DNA from: a virus
Strand: one strand, 5' to 3'
IMG/VR virus record: IMGVR_UViG_3300022752_000322
Span: 1-27,127 of that record
Length of the DNA: 27,127 nucleotides
Part shown: piece after piece, positions 17,555 through 26,472 of the stretch
Layout: each line of letters begins with the position of its first letter
How positions within the stretch are numbered: the stretch's first letter is position 1
The notes under the pieces: model-generated
Databases searched by the model: none
The model's input: the letters and a program-made list of their open reading frames with translations, nothing else
Told to the model about the DNA's origin: nothing
Program-made: the position numbers and the translations under genes

Positions 17555-18715
17555 TTACTTATCTTTGTATCTTTCCCAAATATTAGTAGACCAAGTCCTG
17601 CCTGCATCACCTCCCCATAAATCCCAAGCAATTCGCCAAGTTGTAGGTTCGCCATCCCTAAACTCATAATGAGTTGAACGATAATTACCGTGCCTAGAAA
17701 AAAAAGAATACATTCTTTTAACTGTCGATAGTGTTAAATTCTCTCTATTTTTTAATTGATTAGCTCTTTTAACTCCAACAGCTGTTCCACCCCTGCCATA
17801 TTTTCGCCTCCATTCTAAGGCTCTTGCTCCTGCTGTTGCCATCGCTTCGGTAGGCTTGAAAGTTTCGGTTGCTTTTGCTTCAAACGATTTTTTACCAAAC
17901 TTATTAGAATAATCTGCGATACAACGACAGCCAATTGACTCCTCGGCTGGCAAGTTAGGATCTCTTGGGAATTTTGCACTACTTCCGCCAACTAAAAAAT
18001 TATCATTAACATTGACCTGTTGAAAATCGGCTTGTGCATGTGTTATTCTAGTTCTTTTATCAAGCAAAGCGACCCAAGTTTTAAGCACTTCAATTGGCTT
18101 GCCGTCAATTTCTAATTGTGTATCGTCTATAAGCTCGCCCTCTTCTTGCCTAGTCCAGCTTTCGGTTAAACCAACAACTTGTGAGGCGATTAATTGAGTT
18201 CTTGCTTCGCTTTTATCAAGTAAGTTTATTTTAATATTTCTAGCAATAATAATCCACTCAGGCAAAGCTTTTTGGTTGTTAAACTTAATCTCTTCTTGTG
18301 ATATAGCTAACAATATTTCTTTTGTATTTGTTTCGGTTATATATTTTGCTTGTCTTTCACTTTCATTGGCAATAAAAAATGTAGCAGACTCTTGAAACTG
18401 TGTATTGACTTCTTTTAATTTTTCTTTTGCTTTTGGATCTGTAATGTCTTTTGTTTCAAAATCAATGCCAAAGTTTAAGCCTTTTTGTTGCAAGTCTTCT
18501 CGCAAGGCAAAGCCAAACTCTTTTACTGTTTTTCGCATTATATCTCTAATCTCTTTTAAAAACTCTGGGTAATAATTATTTGCCAACTCACTAGAATTTA
18601 TATTGCCATTTTTACGATAGATATTTTCAGCATCATTTGCCATATGTTTAAATATAGCCTTGATTTTAGGTATAGAATTGGCTTCTAACTTTCTTTTGCG
18701 AACATCAATTTCCAT
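17555..18715 (-). CDS. MuF-like minor head protein with C-terminal GRGGT/WGGD domain
   Basis: A 386-residue head morphogenesis protein. Residues 120-266 carry the Mu F (SPP1 gp7-like) domain, seen as LTESWTRQEE, KTWVALLDKRTRITHAQAD and the closing GCRCIAD. Such proteins bind the portal inside the head and are needed for assembly or ejection. Residues about 286-386 are a separate domain: AGARALEWRRKYGRGGTAVG, SLTLSTVKRM-like LTLSTVKRMYSFFSRH, and GEPTTWRIAWDLWGGDAGRTW. This motif block is a recurrent module in phage head proteins and proteases of proteobacterial phages, with no function that I know. The gene overlaps the portal gene by 11 nt. Confidence 0.85.
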   Translation of the reverse strand: MEIDVRKRKLEANSIPKIKAIFKHMANDAENIYRKNGNINSSELANNYYPEFLKEIRDIMRKTVKEFGFALREDLQQKGLNFGIDFETKDITDPKAKEKLKEVNTQFQESATFFIANESERQAKYITETNTKEILLAISQEEIKFNNQKALPEWIIIARNIKINLLDKSEARTQLIASQVVGLTESWTRQEEGELIDDTQLEIDGKPIEVLKTWVALLDKRTRITHAQADFQQVNVNDNFLVGGSSAKFPRDPNLPAEESIGCRCIADYSNKFGKKSFEAKATETFKPTEAMATAGARALEWRRKYGRGGTAVGVKRANQLKNRENLTLSTVKRMYSFFSRHGNYRSTHYEFRDGEPTTWRIAWDLWGGDAGRTWSTNIWERYKDK

Positions 18716-20066
18716 AATATTCTTTTGCTTTTAATTCTATATACTCATCACTATAAAATCTTCCACCATCTTGTTTTTGTTGAGATTTCATTATTCTTAT
18801 AAACTCGCTTTTTGCCATAGGCTCATCTCTATTATCTTCAGTGTTTATGTCTTCGCCTACTGGCACTAGATTAGCTGGCTTATATATAGTATCACCACCT
18901 TTTATTGCTTCATAGCCAATCATTGCTCTAATTTCATTATCACTTAATACACCAGTTTGGCTGGCTATTTTTGCATTCTCGAATTTTCTTGTTTCAAGAG
19001 CCTCAATTGCCGATTCATCAAAAGAATATTCTAACTCTTCCGTGCCTGCATATCTTGTAAGTAATTTTGCAGATAAAAATTTTAATAATCTTTTAAGGAC
19101 TGGTATTACAGCATTATCATAATAAGCATATTTAGAAGCATCCATATTAGAAAATGTCATATTATTCGAGTTAACCATTGGCAACGGTATTTTTAGAGCA
19201 TTGTAGATTGATTCCGTCACTGATTTTTTGAGTTGTGGGAAGTCCATATCTTTTATTGATAGTGATAATTGTTTCCAGTCAAAATCACCGCCTAAAAAGA
19301 CCATTTCACCAGCATTTTGTGAGCCAGCTAGTTTTTGTTTCATTAAATCTTTTATTTTATCGATTTGTTCAGGCTGTAATTCATTTGTGCCCTTGTGAGT
19401 TAACATCCCACTTGGTCTTGCACCATTTTTAAGTAAAGAATAATTGTGTATTGATGCAGTAACGAACTGTGCGATTTCTAATTGACAGCCAATAAAGGCA
19501 CTACAACCTACTAGATTGGTTGATGAGAATTTAGGGTTGAAACTTCGCAAGTGTATCAATTCATTTTGCCTTGCATCAATAAATCTTTTTTTTGCATCTC
19601 TTTTATATATTGTCGAATTAATAGCAGTTGACACTGTATATTCTCCCATATATCCATCAGAGCCAGCCAAAATTGTTATGTCTGTTGGCTTGATAGTATT
19701 TATTTCTATTGGCAGTGTTTCACCTATTATATTTATGTATGCATTTCCAGTTAATAAATAATAACTTGCAATCTCTTTAATAAATAATTGGGGGTCAGTA
19801 AAGGGGTTAGGGTTTTTAAGAATATCGAGGGCTTTATGTTTGTAAATAAAGTCGCCAGTTTTTTTATTCTTTAAAACAATATCAATTGAGCTTATCGAAT
19901 CACTTATTAGATTAGTTGCGGTAAATACAGGGCAAGCATCATAAAAATAATTAATAAAGGCACTAGCACTATTATTGGAACTATATTCTTGATTAAGAAA
20001 GTTAAATGCAAACCAGTCTTGCATTCGATAGCTTTTTTTCTCTTGTTTTTTTTTAAAGAATAACAT
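18705..20066 (-). CDS. Portal protein, HK97 family
   Basis: The 453-residue portal forms the dodecameric DNA channel at the head vertex. Typical HK97-portal segments are ACPVFTATNLISDSISSIDI near residue 50, LLTGNAYINIIGE, LIHLRSFNPKF, SIHNYSLLKNGARPSGMLTH, MVFLGGDFDWKQLSLSIKDM, and PLPMVNSNNMTFSNMDASKY. The C-terminal part includes GVLSDNEIRAMIGYEAIKGG and ends with a basic tail. Its ATG at 20066 follows a 68-nt gap with a CATAGTTT element; no Shine-Dalgarno sequence is evident. The stop overlaps the MuF gene. Confidence 0.93.
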   Translation of the reverse strand: MLFFKKKQEKKSYRMQDWFAFNFLNQEYSSNNSASAFINYFYDACPVFTATNLISDSISSIDIVLKNKKTGDFIYKHKALDILKNPNPFTDPQLFIKEIASYYLLTGNAYINIIGETLPIEINTIKPTDITILAGSDGYMGEYTVSTAINSTIYKRDAKKRFIDARQNELIHLRSFNPKFSSTNLVGCSAFIGCQLEIAQFVTASIHNYSLLKNGARPSGMLTHKGTNELQPEQIDKIKDLMKQKLAGSQNAGEMVFLGGDFDWKQLSLSIKDMDFPQLKKSVTESIYNALKIPLPMVNSNNMTFSNMDASKYAYYDNAVIPVLKRLLKFLSAKLLTRYAGTEELEYSFDESAIEALETRKFENAKIASQTGVLSDNEIRAMIGYEAIKGGDTIYKPANLVPVGEDINTEDNRDEPMAKSEFIRIMKSQQKQDGGRFYSDEYIELKAKEYYGN

Positions 20067-20099: not shown

Positions 20100-20135
20100 T
20101 TTTTTTTATAAAAAGTCATTAAAAAAAACTATGAT
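20100..20135. promoter_or_regulatory. CATAGTTT/AAACTATG element between terminase and portal genes
   Basis: In the 68-nt gap between the large terminase stop and the portal start, the plus strand reads AAAAAAAACTATGATT, matching the leader-start sequence of plus-strand genes at 4533 and 17266. Here the ATG opens only nine codons. On the minus strand the CATAGTTT element lies 65 nt before the portal ATG. Confidence 0.35.
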
Positions 20136-22585
20136 TAAAAGGCATAAAACTCTTTTTTAACAAATAATGCAATTTTACAAGCATCAATTAAAGTGTCAAC
20201 AAAATCATCGTGTGCAGATTGATTAAATGATAACAACTCCTCAACAATATCGTTAAAATTTTCTATGCAATTATTTAAAATAACATTAGGATCGCTAGAA
20301 TTTAAGCAAGGTATTATATTATTAGCTCGCATAACTTTATCACCATCTCTTGGCAGTGTTTGTTTAATCATTGCCTCGCTAGGCACTGGCAAACCATCCT
20401 TTCTATATTGTTGCAATAAGTAAGTTCCGTGTGCTTTATCTTCAATCCATATATAACGGAAGCCATATTGTATTTTTGGCATAATCCAAGGTCTTATCCA
20501 ACTATCAATCTCTACCGAATTTATTTTTTTTCTTTTAACATCTATTAGATACAATTTTTTATTTAGAACTCCCCAGTAGCTAAAACAAGTAAAATCATTA
20601 TGTTGTTTGTCTTTATAAGCCAAGTCGGCAGTTATAAAAGTGTAATCATATTTAGATGGCAAGTTATTGGTAAATATGAAACAATCTCTTTTAAATAGGG
20701 CACCGCTTGACAAAATAGGGCTTTGTTGGTATTGTGATAAAAACATAAACTCATTTTTTTGCAACTCTTGTAGGCGGTCTTGTGTATATTGCGAAGGTAA
20801 TTGACACACTCCATCGACTACAAGTGGCATTTTAAGTAGCTCGAATTTATATTTATCTAATAAAAAGCCTGACATGTCTTCAAGATGCAATCTTTGTTGT
20901 ATGTTGATAATAGGCACTTCGCTATCATTAAGCCTACTTAATAAAGTCTCTTCGAAGTATATTTTAACCTTGTTTCTGCGAACTTGTGAGTAAATGTCGG
21001 AGGGCTTATTTCCGTCATCTAGTATTAGGCCGCCCGAAAACTCTTTTGCTCCTCGAATGCCACAATTATGAACTAATACTTGACTATTATTTATAAAAAA
21101 GTTATTATAGTCTTTTATGGTTAAACAATAACTTGATTCAAAATGATTACTATTGATAATATCGACTATTTTCCTATTCCCTCTTTTAAAGAATACTTTA
21201 TTAGTAAGTGTGGTAAAGTTTTTACTAATATTAAAAAGAGACTGCTTAAACCTTGCCTTGACAAAAAAGGATATTACTACATTAGCCTTAAATGTATAAA
21301 AACTAATAAATCTGTAAAACATAGAATTCACAGGCTGGTTTGTTTGACTTTTATTGGCAAGCCTAATGGATTGGTAGTAAGGCATCTTAACGGGAATTCT
21401 AAAGACAATAGATTGGAAAATCTTGCTTATGGAACTCAATCCGATAACGAACAAGATAGCATAAAACACGGCACTCATTATAGAAACACTAAATTTACAA
21501 TTGAGCAAGTAAGACAAATAGCAAGTGACAAAAGACCATATAAAGAGATAGCAAAAGAGTTTGGAACTGCGAGAAATTATGTTTCTGATATTAAATCTGG
21601 CATTTTTTGGGGTAGAGAGACCGAAGGTATTAGGTATCGAAGAGGTAGAGTTGGGGCAAATCCTCTTCAAGAAAGATTCACCAAGGAACAAATTCAATTT
21701 ATTATTGATAAAAATAATTCTAGAAAAACAATTTTTGAAAAATACGGAATAACAATTCACATTATTAAAAGCATTAGAAAAAAGTTTAAAACCAATTTTT
21801 AAATCTTTTGCCTCTATTTCTTTTCCATTTTCTAGATAAAAAATATGGTCTGGAGTTGCATTAATAATCTCATCATTATCTAACTTTATTTTTAAAAATG
21901 GCGAAATTTCGTTTTTTACAAATCTTTCAATCTCTTTAAGCTCTCTTTTTTGTTTTTTAAAGTTATATGCCCAAACTTTAATTTTTAGCTTATTTTCTAC
22001 AATATAGCCTAATTTTAAATAACCATTTTCTGTTAAAATTAAAGTATCATAATCAAAACAACCAAAACCTGTAATCTGACCACCAATAGATGAAAACAAT
22101 ACAACTCCACCATCGGCAGTAGTTATTTTTCTACTAGAAAAAGTAGGCTTGCCAGTCTCTTCTTGTATATAAGATTGCCAAAACTCATCAATAGGCTGAA
22201 CCTCTTGTGCCTCTTCTTTTATGCCATTATTATACATAGCTAAATAAACTGGGTTTGTTAAAATATTAGCTAAATCTCTTGATATATCGTTTAGTAATGC
22301 TTGCGAATAACTAGTATAAATAAAGTTAGCCTTGGGGTTTGTGGCCAGTGTATAAGCTATAAAATATCTAGCAACTGTTGTTTTAGCCGATCTAGGGCAT
22401 ATATTGATATTCAATCTTTTATGCTTTAAATCATAGACATCTTGGAAGGCTTGCAATAATTTAGGGTGCAATGGTTCTTTTATAAACTTTCTGCCTTCAA
22501 TCAATCGAAACATATATAAAAACCAAGTTTCAAAACCTTTCTTATGAAGTAGCTGTCCAAAGTATTGAGGGTTTTTAATCTGCAT
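20135..22585 (-). CDS. Terminase large subunit, interrupted by an intein
   Basis: The 816-residue precursor is a packaging ATPase/nuclease that would be 484 residues after splicing. The N-extein (1-175) has a Walker A-like [13 protein letters not shown] (63-75), the [11 protein letters not shown] motif and then the intein. The C-extein (508-816) begins [10 protein letters not shown], has Walker B GLILDD (519-524), [24 protein letters not shown]-type motor residues (for example QRLH), and an RNaseH-like nuclease with TADLAY (Asp654), WIEDKAHG (Asp716) and HDDFVDTL (Asp793/794/797). It is the only large terminase here, so the intein must splice for packaging. It overlaps the small terminase gene by 11 nt. 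Confidence 0.95.
21065..22060 (-). mobile_element. Intein within the large terminase (332 residues)
   Basis: Residues 176-507 have intein splicing blocks. Block A is [18 protein letters not shown] with Cys1. Block B is [14 protein letters not shown] with the TxxH motif, followed by [15 protein letters not shown] (normally A..LK.GD.l). Blocks F and G are [15 protein letters not shown] and QVLVHN with the terminal His-Asn, followed by Cys as +1 residue. Insertion is between GFG and CGIRG, just before Walker B, a conserved nucleotide-binding site of the kind inteins favour. Between the blocks, residues 262-481 contain no LAGLIDADG or HNH motif; they are the antisense translation of a separate plus-strand endonuclease gene. 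Without that overlap the splicing domain is about 112 residues. Confidence 0.93.
21143..21802 (+). CDS. NUMOD4/HNH homing endonuclease nested antisense in the intein
   Basis: A complete 219-residue gene on the strand opposite to the terminase. Residues 9-30 form a NUMOD4-like motif ([21 protein letters not shown]). Residues 58-105 form an HNH nuclease: [17 protein letters not shown] with His63, then [20 protein letters not shown] with His81 and Asn93, then TQSDNEQDS. Two helix-turn-helix-like DNA-binding regions follow ([10 protein letters not shown]...[10 protein letters not shown], 118-152; [10 protein letters not shown]...[10 protein letters not shown], 179-214). It lies wholly inside the intein and in exact codon register with it. 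Its 11 Leu and 12 Ser codons include no TTA, CTA or TCA. It would cut intein-less terminase alleles to spread the intein; that activity is inferred from the family. Confidence 0.92.
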
Positions 22586-23243
22586 CTTCTATAATTTTAT
22601 TTATATGCTGTTCGTATGCTTCTTTCTCTTCTTTTTCAATATAAACCACTTTTGATTGTATCTGCCCTGAGTGTTCGGTTTCGGTCTTTAAACTAAACTC
22701 ATCTTTTGCCTTTCTTTCTGCATACCATTTAGCGGTTGAAACATCGCCTTCATCTAATGCTTTATTGATTACAAGGATTGATTTAATTAGCGGTTTTTTT
22801 TGTAATGTTTTGCAATGGTCTAAAAAGCCTTCCGTTGCATCACAATAGTTATAATAAGTCTGTTTTGATATATCAGCCCAAATGCAAGCATTATCAATGC
22901 TAAATCCCTTTGCAAAGCCCTCTTCTAATTTTGCAATAACATCAGGCGTCATTGATGATGGTCTTCCAGCTTTTATTTTTTCTTTTCTTATAATAACTTT
23001 AGCAGGTTTTTTTTTAACTTTTTCAAGTTTTTGTTTGTTAATAATATTTTTACATTTGATAATAAAGGCAGGTTTTCTTTTGCCTTGGTTGATATAAGTG
23101 CCTCTAGATATACCAACAACTTTACAAGCTTCGGTAATTGTCTTTCCCTCTTCTAGTGCATTATAAAAGATTTGCTCTTTTTCCTCTGTCAAAGCTATTA
23201 AGTGTTTATTAATTTCTTTCTTAACTATTTTTCTTTTTGGCAT
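22575..23243 (-). CDS. Terminase small subunit-like DNA-binding protein
   Basis: The 222-residue protein precedes and overlaps the large terminase gene by 11 nt. It contains two helix-turn-helix-like segments: ITEACKVVGISRGTYIN (about 35-51) and, after a Lys-rich linker, a GRPSSMTPDVIAKLEEGFAK start followed by SIDNACIWADISKQTYYNY. Further on, STAKWYAERKAKDEFS is a phrase typical of phage small terminases that recognise packaging sites. A basic N-terminus (PKRKIVKKEINK) could aid DNA binding. Its promoter and a GC-rich cos-like island lie just upstream, as expected for the first late gene. The product is longer than many TerS proteins, owing to the duplicated HTH. Confidence 0.82.
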   Translation of the reverse strand: MPKRKIVKKEINKHLIALTEEKEQIFYNALEEGKTITEACKVVGISRGTYINQGKRKPAFIIKCKNIINKQKLEKVKKKPAKVIIRKEKIKAGRPSSMTPDVIAKLEEGFAKGFSIDNACIWADISKQTYYNYCDATEGFLDHCKTLQKKPLIKSILVINKALDEGDVSTAKWYAERKAKDEFSLKTETEHSGQIQSKVVYIEKEEKEAYEQHINKIIEDAD

Positions 23244-25533: not shown

Positions 25534-26472
25534 ATGCATATTTTAGTAAAAATGTATTTTGGTAGCCATTTATATGGCACTAATACAGAAAATTCCGATT
25601 TAGATATTAAAGGAGTTTATTTGCCATCAATACAAGATTGTGTTTTAAATAAAATAAAAAAAAGCATTGCAAATAATACAAAAATTGGTAATGGCAAAAA
25701 CTCAAAAGAAGATGTTGATTGCGAATTTTATTCTTTACAATATTTTTTATTAGAATTAGGTAAGAATGGCGATACAACTTTTCTTGACATGATACATGCT
25801 CCTAAAAAATCAATAATTGAAACAAGTTTAGAATGGGAAAATTTGCAAGCAAATAGATCAAAATTTTATACTAAAAATTTAAAAGCTTATATTGGCTATT
25901 GCAGAAGTCAAGCATCTAAATACGGCATTAAAGGGTCAAAATTAAATGAAGCTAAAAAAATATTAGATATTTTTAACAAACATAATGAAAGCGAAAAATT
26001 AGCTAATTTTTGGGAAGAATTGCCAAACAGTGAGTATTCTAAAAAATATAATATAGATAATTGCCAAGAAAAAGATAAACGAACTTTTGATTTTTGTGGT
26101 AAAAAATTAATGGCTAATACAAATGTATTTTTTGCAAAACAAACTATACAAAAATTTTATGATTGTTATGGCGAAAGGGCAAAAATGGCACAAGATAATG
26201 AGGGCATTGATTGGAAAGCTATTTCACATGCTTTTAGGGTTGGCTATCAATTGCAAGAGATTTACACAACAGGAGATTTACAATTCCCTTTAAAAAATAA
26301 AGAATTTTTAATTAAAATAAAAACAGGAAATTTTCATTATGTTAAAGATGATATCGCAACAAAATTAGAAGATTTAATTGATAATATTGAAAATTTAGCA
26401 AATAAAAGCAATTTTCAAGAACAAGTTGATTTAACTTATGCAAATAATTTTATTTGCAATTTATATAAATAA
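25534..26472 (+). CDS. RlaP-type nucleotidyltransferase (DNA polymerase beta superfamily)
   Basis: The 312-residue protein has the signature of the RlaP family: GSHLYGTNTENSDLDIKGVY (10-29) with Asp22 and Asp24 as the metal-binding pair, and DVDCEFYSLQYFLLELGKNG (about 60-79) with a likely third acidic residue. A long helical C-terminal domain follows, including YIGYCRSQASKYGIKGSK and ISHAFRVGYQLQEIYTTGDL. RlaP proteins occur in many phages and near RNA-repair ligases. They are presumed to transfer a nucleotide to an RNA or protein substrate, but the true substrate is unknown. Downstream, the next gene starts 3 nt later. No RNA ligase is seen in this window. Confidence 0.85.
   Translation: MHILVKMYFGSHLYGTNTENSDLDIKGVYLPSIQDCVLNKIKKSIANNTKIGNGKNSKEDVDCEFYSLQYFLLELGKNGDTTFLDMIHAPKKSIIETSLEWENLQANRSKFYTKNLKAYIGYCRSQASKYGIKGSKLNEAKKILDIFNKHNESEKLANFWEELPNSEYSKKYNIDNCQEKDKRTFDFCGKKLMANTNVFFAKQTIQKFYDCYGERAKMAQDNEGIDWKAISHAFRVGYQLQEIYTTGDLQFPLKNKEFLIKIKTGNFHYVKDDIATKLEDLIDNIENLANKSNFQEQVDLTYANNFICNLYK

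Follow-up and report, generated by a model that had tools for sequence, protein, structure and literature searches.

The large terminase gene (terL) of a viral contig very likely carries a homing intein whose endonuclease is a separate, independently expressed gene, nested antisense in a disordered loop of the HINT splicing domain. The contig (IMG/VR record IMGVR_UViG_3300022752_000322) was analysed over its full 27,127 nucleotides, here called the window. Judged by sequence, the intein interrupts terL precisely at a site that is conserved, its splicing blocks are intact and conserved, and a full-length NUMOD4/HNH_3 gene is conserved on the other strand, purged of every codon that would stop terL.

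The terminase intein and the gene on its opposite strand

Features of the window locus are collected in Table 1. The terL gene was flanked by a putative terS (22575-23243) and a portal gene (18705-20066). An earlier note on this DNA, made from the letters alone, had described a terL intein with intact splicing blocks (Cys1, TPDH, HN then Cys), boundaries at codons 176 and 507, no in-frame endonuclease and an antisense HNH gene, and all of these points were borne out, the coordinates being exact to the codon by open reading frames, PF14890, TIGR01445 and HNH_3/NUMOD4. Pfam Intein_splicing (PF14890) matched residues 183-507 in a scan of window TerL (E 1.5e-14), the first position of the TIGR01445 (intein_Nterm) match was exactly TerL codon 176, and alignment to 15 intein-less relatives placed the junction at GFG↓C (arrow, insertion point). 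The note had also named use of another intact terL as grounds for doubting the intein; the window record contained one terL and no second copy.

Table 1. Positions of the terminase, intein and endonuclease features in the window
Feature	Position	Strand	Evidence
terL open frame (precursor: N-extein, intein, C-extein), 816 aa	20135..22585	-	PHROG terminase large subunit 1.7e-73; Terminase_6C (Pfam)
N-extein, TerL codons 1-175, ending ...QITGFG	22061..22585	-	alignment to intein-less relatives
Intein, TerL codons 176-507, 332 aa	21065..22060	-	Pfam, TIGR01445, alignment to intein-less relatives
N-terminal splicing region of intein, 86 aa, Cys1 and TPDH block, outside HNH gene	21803..22060	-	splicing-block dN/dS 0.08; AF2 pLDDT 60-87
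C-terminal splicing region of intein, 26 aa	21065..21142	-	splicing-block alignment
C-extein, TerL codons 508-816 plus stop, first residues CGIRGAKEF (Cys+1)	20135..21064	-	alignment to intein-less relatives
NUMOD4/HNH_3 endonuclease gene, 219 aa, codon-on-codon antisense to terL, wholly within intein	21143..21802	+	ORF, Pfam, PHROG, PDB, AF2
Sigma-70-like promoter candidate for HNH, TTGACT-17-TATTAT, -10 end 34 nt before ATG	21080..21108	+	similar match at corresponding place in several relatives

Cys1, TPDH, the terminal HN and Cys+1 were all found between Cys176 and the residue after Asn507. PF14890 matched 12/12 inteins scanned, and in an alignment of inteins (n = 12) Cys1, Thr69, His72 and Asn332 were invariant. 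The block F His is replaced by Asn in the window intein (YNNF), which retains the penultimate His; the intein of the cultured phage BUCT618 has neither the block F His nor the penultimate His. A Pfam scan of the TerL frame gave no nuclease family within the intein, where a large intein with its endonuclease in frame would have one, and terL was a single 816-aa frame, not the two ORFs of a split intein. In the AF2 model, intein residues 1-94 and 295-324 formed a HINT-like core (pLDDT roughly 50-87), residues 95-294 had pLDDT of 23-41, and Foldseek matched the model to NpuDnaE (3.7e-6) and to other mini-inteins; the intein is predicted to be a HINT fold around a disordered loop.

The 219-aa ORF matched HNH_3 (E 4.1e-12) and NUMOD4 (E 2.7e-7) in Pfam and HNH families in PHROG (best E 4.6e-41), and both Pfam domains were matched in 13/13 HNH proteins scanned. 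Its closest solved structure, by sequence (E 1.7e-9) and fold (Foldseek 1.2e-8 with an AF2 model of pLDDT 82.6), was I-HmuI, the HNH nickase of a Bacillus phage SPO1 intron (PDB 1u3e), with which it shares NUMOD4-HNH_3-type architecture and C-terminal DNA-binding helices. I-HmuI differs in being intron-encoded on the sense strand, and the present family has an extra C-terminal helix-turn-helix-like part. In the alignment the HNH motif reads VRH versus VDH in I-HmuI, placing Arg at the metal-binding Asp position; with Arg-His in this family for the Asp-His of I-HmuI, nuclease activity is not assured.

The promoter candidate upstream of the HNH start sits in codons of the C-terminal splicing block. 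TTGAC(T/C)-17-TAT(G/T)AT was found at the equivalent position in L054, L052, L046, L048 and L053 (locus labels, see below), TTGATT-17-TATGAT at that position in L040, and TTGACA-17-TATGAT at a shifted distance in L047. Compared with synonymous recoding, the match was not significant locus by locus (p 0.02-0.66), because the amino acids at that place favour the motif; TTGACT-17-TATTAT is a positionally suggestive candidate for the HNH promoter. A Shine-Dalgarno sequence (AGGAG) preceded HNH in L040, L046, L047, L048 and L072, and none was found before the HNH gene of the window. The main genes of the window had essentially no Shine-Dalgarno sequences and A-rich upstream regions, which suggests a host not reliant on them.

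Recurrence, empty sites and probable mobility

A search for the same layout in other phages, which the earlier note had proposed, turned a seemingly single case into a widespread family. The nested antisense layout was found at at least 14 complete loci, on IMG/VR contigs, a Clostridia MAG contig (L040) and in one cultured Escherichia phage (BUCT618, OM735461), for which the record annotates only 'terminase large subunit'. The 14 loci were the window, L055 (on the L002 contig), L054 (on the L003 contig), L052, BUCT618 (L030), L042, L043, L044, L046, L047, L048, L053, L040 and L072; L052 has a near-identical contig, L051, and a cut-off one, L057, and an extra locus, L045, ends at a contig edge. 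Searches were made with the HNH protein, then with HNH alignments, plus an intein N-domain alignment, which was a narrow one, a wider set of N-terminal sequences having diverged too far for scanning.

All nested loci were in terL, at several insertion sites: TGFG↓C in the window, L054 and L052, and elsewhere, in the Walker B neighbourhood, GG↓CIIIDD, GGC↓CLVDD, GML↓CIDD and FLL/AII/CIF↓CDD. At every nested locus HNH started 25-34 codons before the intein end, always in the codon-on-codon antisense register (phase 2), a constancy of the sequences that points to a single ancestral nesting event. No HNH relative lacking an open antisense frame was located inside a TerL intein, so the set does not represent open cases picked from many broken ones. 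Nothing near BUCT618 terL was found in E. coli genomes. Matches of phage-plasmid dnaE-HNH were rejected as overlaps, since HNH there is a tandem same-strand gene, as were HNH matches in phages Aurca01, Medea1 and Aramis, which are same-strand or free-standing. In L028 (1380-2069) a second HNH-type ORF, on the terL strand, overlaps the 3′ end of an intein-bearing terL.

TerL relatives of the window were found at 23 loci. Fifteen full-length ones, 77-97% identical to it in TerL, were uninterrupted across GFG↓(C/S/A)G at codon 176; these terminases have 484 aa (one shortened by a contig end, one with an internal stop), as does window TerL minus its intein. The same intein with its antisense HNH gene was present in 2 of the 23 loci, L002 (99%) and L003 (84%). 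TerL of L005 is 97% identical to that of the window and has no insert, so presence and absence vary between near relatives. HNH was found in 3/3 intein-bearing records of the window group versus 0/15 intein-less ones, the latter being up to 36 kb (some 18-36 kb) and possibly fragments, which qualifies the absence. Flank identity gave no clean co-conversion tract. Near the window-type site, TerL mini-inteins of 144 or 163 aa without a nuclease were found in L082-L085.

The HNH and splicing-domain trees were broadly alike. Window HNH grouped with that of L052, which has the same insertion site (support 100/99), and window TerL grouped with that of L040 (support 100/100), a disagreement indicating that element and host gene have separate histories, as would be expected of an element moving between terminase lineages. 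In L049 (3968-4654) a free-standing NUMOD4/HNH gene lies antisense in the terS-terL gap, adjoining an intein-less terL, an arrangement that may plausibly be an earlier stage of the nested design.

Joint movement of intein and nuclease is not the only way to read these patterns. NUMOD4/HNH genes are common free-standing phage elements, and the L049 relative beside an intein-less terL indicates that this lineage can live outside inteins; a splicing-competent intein could have been invaded by an unrelated HNH gene with its target elsewhere, serving as a safe harbour for it without joint homing. This is unlikely, in that among window relatives neither HNH nor intein was found without the other, the relationships of HNH, splicing domain and insertion site agree with one another and differ from the TerL tree, and the L049 gene itself adjoins terL, as though terL were its target. 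According to PMC12613952, which cites Kala et al. (2014), HNH proteins encoded close to terminases are a widespread component of packaging modules, and the nested HNH protein could likewise serve DNA packaging, its location in an intein being incidental. This is very improbable: window HNH belongs with the homing endonucleases of NUMOD4/HNH_3 type that resemble I-HmuI, and no HNH match was obtained in the records of 15 close relatives with intact TerL, some of which span 18-36 kb and all of which may be fragments.

Selection on the two frames

In the phase 2 register an HNH codon TTA, CTA or TCA is a stop in terL. Across the 14 HNH genes none of these codons was observed versus ~122 expected from local codon usage (3.9-16.7 per locus; per-locus p 1.5e-2 to 1e-12), window HNH having 0 versus 10.8 expected (p ~1e-7), and free-standing HNH relatives contained 1-17 each. 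The terL frame was open across HNH in 14/14 loci, in agreement with the claim in the earlier note that it must stay so. That note had allowed that homologous inteins might reveal the frame as degenerate; they show it maintained.

Pairwise dN/dS of HNH, where dS could be estimated, was 0.07-0.20. For the splicing blocks it was 0.08-0.11 (0.08-0.10 in close pairs) and for the exteins 0.07-0.09 (close pairs). For the terL frame across HNH it was 2.1-2.7 in close pairs and 0.8-1.3 in more distant ones, indicating a stretch that is kept stop-free and not conserved. Stop avoidance thus upheld the idea of a frame held open, with the refinement that selection on the part across HNH, where dN/dS is close to 1 or higher, acts only against stops. 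On these sequence comparisons the HNH protein and the splicing domain both appear conserved, and the terL-frame peptide across HNH appears open and otherwise free; its hydropathy gave no consistent sign of selection (z -3.8 to +2.9).

Antisense endonuclease genes are known in nuclear group I introns, and the insert might be imagined to leave as RNA, as a group I or II intron with an incidentally open frame. This is exceedingly improbable: no Rfam match, as intron RNA would give, was found in the window at gathering threshold, the splicing-block residues are under strong purifying selection as protein (dN/dS 0.08-0.11) with a predicted HINT fold, and selection maintains an open frame for which an RNA intron would have no use. 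An origin of the open antisense frame in codon bias or chimeric assembly, for which the frequent openness of codon-on-codon antisense frames in GC-rich genes and the p values of only ~0.005-0.015 for L042-L044 taken alone could be cited, has next to no probability and was refuted by p values down to 1e-12 in AT-rich members, by recurrence of the layout in independently assembled contigs and an isolate genome, and by selection visible in both frames.

Proposed mechanism and relation to other nuclease arrangements

For the homing intein with a nested antisense endonuclease gene, the following course is proposed. TerL would be translated as a precursor from which the intein excises itself, giving the 484-aa terminase; the excised intein would include ~220 aa of unselected antisense-derived peptide. 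The opposite strand would yield a transcript of its own for HNH, with its promoter probably lying within the C-terminal splicing block, and expression separate from terL would let the nuclease follow its own schedule. The HNH protein would cut or nick intein-less terL near the insertion site, and repair from the carrier would copy intein and HNH gene jointly.

In textbook homing inteins, nuclease and splicing domain share a single polypeptide, so that expression of the nuclease follows that of the host gene. As in large inteins with in-frame LAGLIDADG or HNH domains, the endonuclease-encoding stretch here splits HINT at the same topological place, and the insertion point falls within a conserved motif of a phage protein of DNA metabolism; unlike them, the endonuclease is out of frame, on the other strand and a separate polypeptide, and the in-frame stretch is an unconserved loop. 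Antisense nesting would uncouple the nuclease from host-gene expression, with ~660 bp serving two proteins on two strands. Fractured genes, in which a free endonuclease gene separates the two parts of a split intein, are said to have been described by Dassa and colleagues in 2009. The present system resembles these, of which L073 and L079 are TerL examples, in having an independent endonuclease gene between the N and C parts of the intein, and differs in that the intein is contiguous and translated through the endonuclease gene. Some group I introns, including nuclear ones, carry antisense homing endonuclease genes. There too the gene is opposite in strand to its host gene, but introns act as RNA and need no open host frame across it.

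Hidden HNH genes of the ShiLan type in phage DNA methylases, reported to show no features of inteins or introns (PMC11855218, 2025), are also nested in a host gene with its frame open across them, and have a disjunct distribution suggesting homing, as here. The ShiLan HNH lies on the same strand in another frame; here it lies on the opposite strand and the insert is a HINT intein (PF14890). The Mic1 terminase inteins paper was rejected as prior art, its endonuclease being a domain within a large TerL intein and not an antisense gene. No published antisense endonuclease gene in an intein was found in the open-licence literature searched, and a homing intein of this kind, without the in-frame endonuclease that defines large inteins, is apparently undescribed. 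Within that literature the suggestion that no such design had been described stood, and with 14 loci the design is not a one-off.

The chances are about even that such inteins form a class of their own among homing inteins, with three layers in a single stretch of DNA (an open linker of a splicing protein; a complete antisense endonuclease gene; the promoter and ribosome-binding site of that gene, embedded in C-terminal splicing-block codons), which would free expression of the nuclease from that of the late terminase gene, and that this class belongs to a wider, overlooked habit of phage inteins of carrying out-of-frame endonuclease genes, antisense HNH in TerL and same-strand +1-frame DUF559 or zinc-finger HNH in other inteins. 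The family offers a natural example of coding on both strands in which one frame is directly shown to be selected only for freedom from stops, and splicing domains that would tolerate 200-residue unselected loops. An evolutionary series for endonucleases colonising inteins would comprise terL without an intein but with an antisense HNH next to it, the mini-intein, the nested antisense gene and the split intein. Standard annotation conceals the nuclease gene, as in the BUCT618 record, which lists the terminase only; as a cultured phage, BUCT618 makes the design accessible to bench study.

Other arrangements were seen among the loci collected. In L073 (2976-5667) and L079 (3-2289) a split intein interrupts terL, and a zinc-finger HNH gene on the same strand lies between its two parts; L080 (3625-4593) has a contiguous TerL intein of 381 aa with a nested same-strand +1-frame zinc-finger HNH of 322 aa. 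Contiguous inteins outside TerL, several of them apparently in helicases, contain same-strand +1-frame zinc-finger DUF559 (Vsr/EDxHD-like) nuclease ORFs across which the host frame is open (L075:2282-3103, L076:3679-4809, L078:3757-4614, L081:3676-4740, L088:190-1065 and L089:3628-4557); judging from these ORFs, this is apparently a second out-of-frame nesting design. In a helicase-like gene of L086 (2931-5987; identical frame in L087) a TnsA-like nuclease ORF (PF08722) stands between the two parts of the intein that splits the gene. With the +1-frame and split cases, antisense nesting is one of several nuclease arrangements in phage inteins that are not in frame. Elsewhere in the window, a gene of the RlaP nucleotidyltransferase family (25534-26472; RNA repair pathway, E 5e-13) lies downstream of a methyltransferase-like gene.
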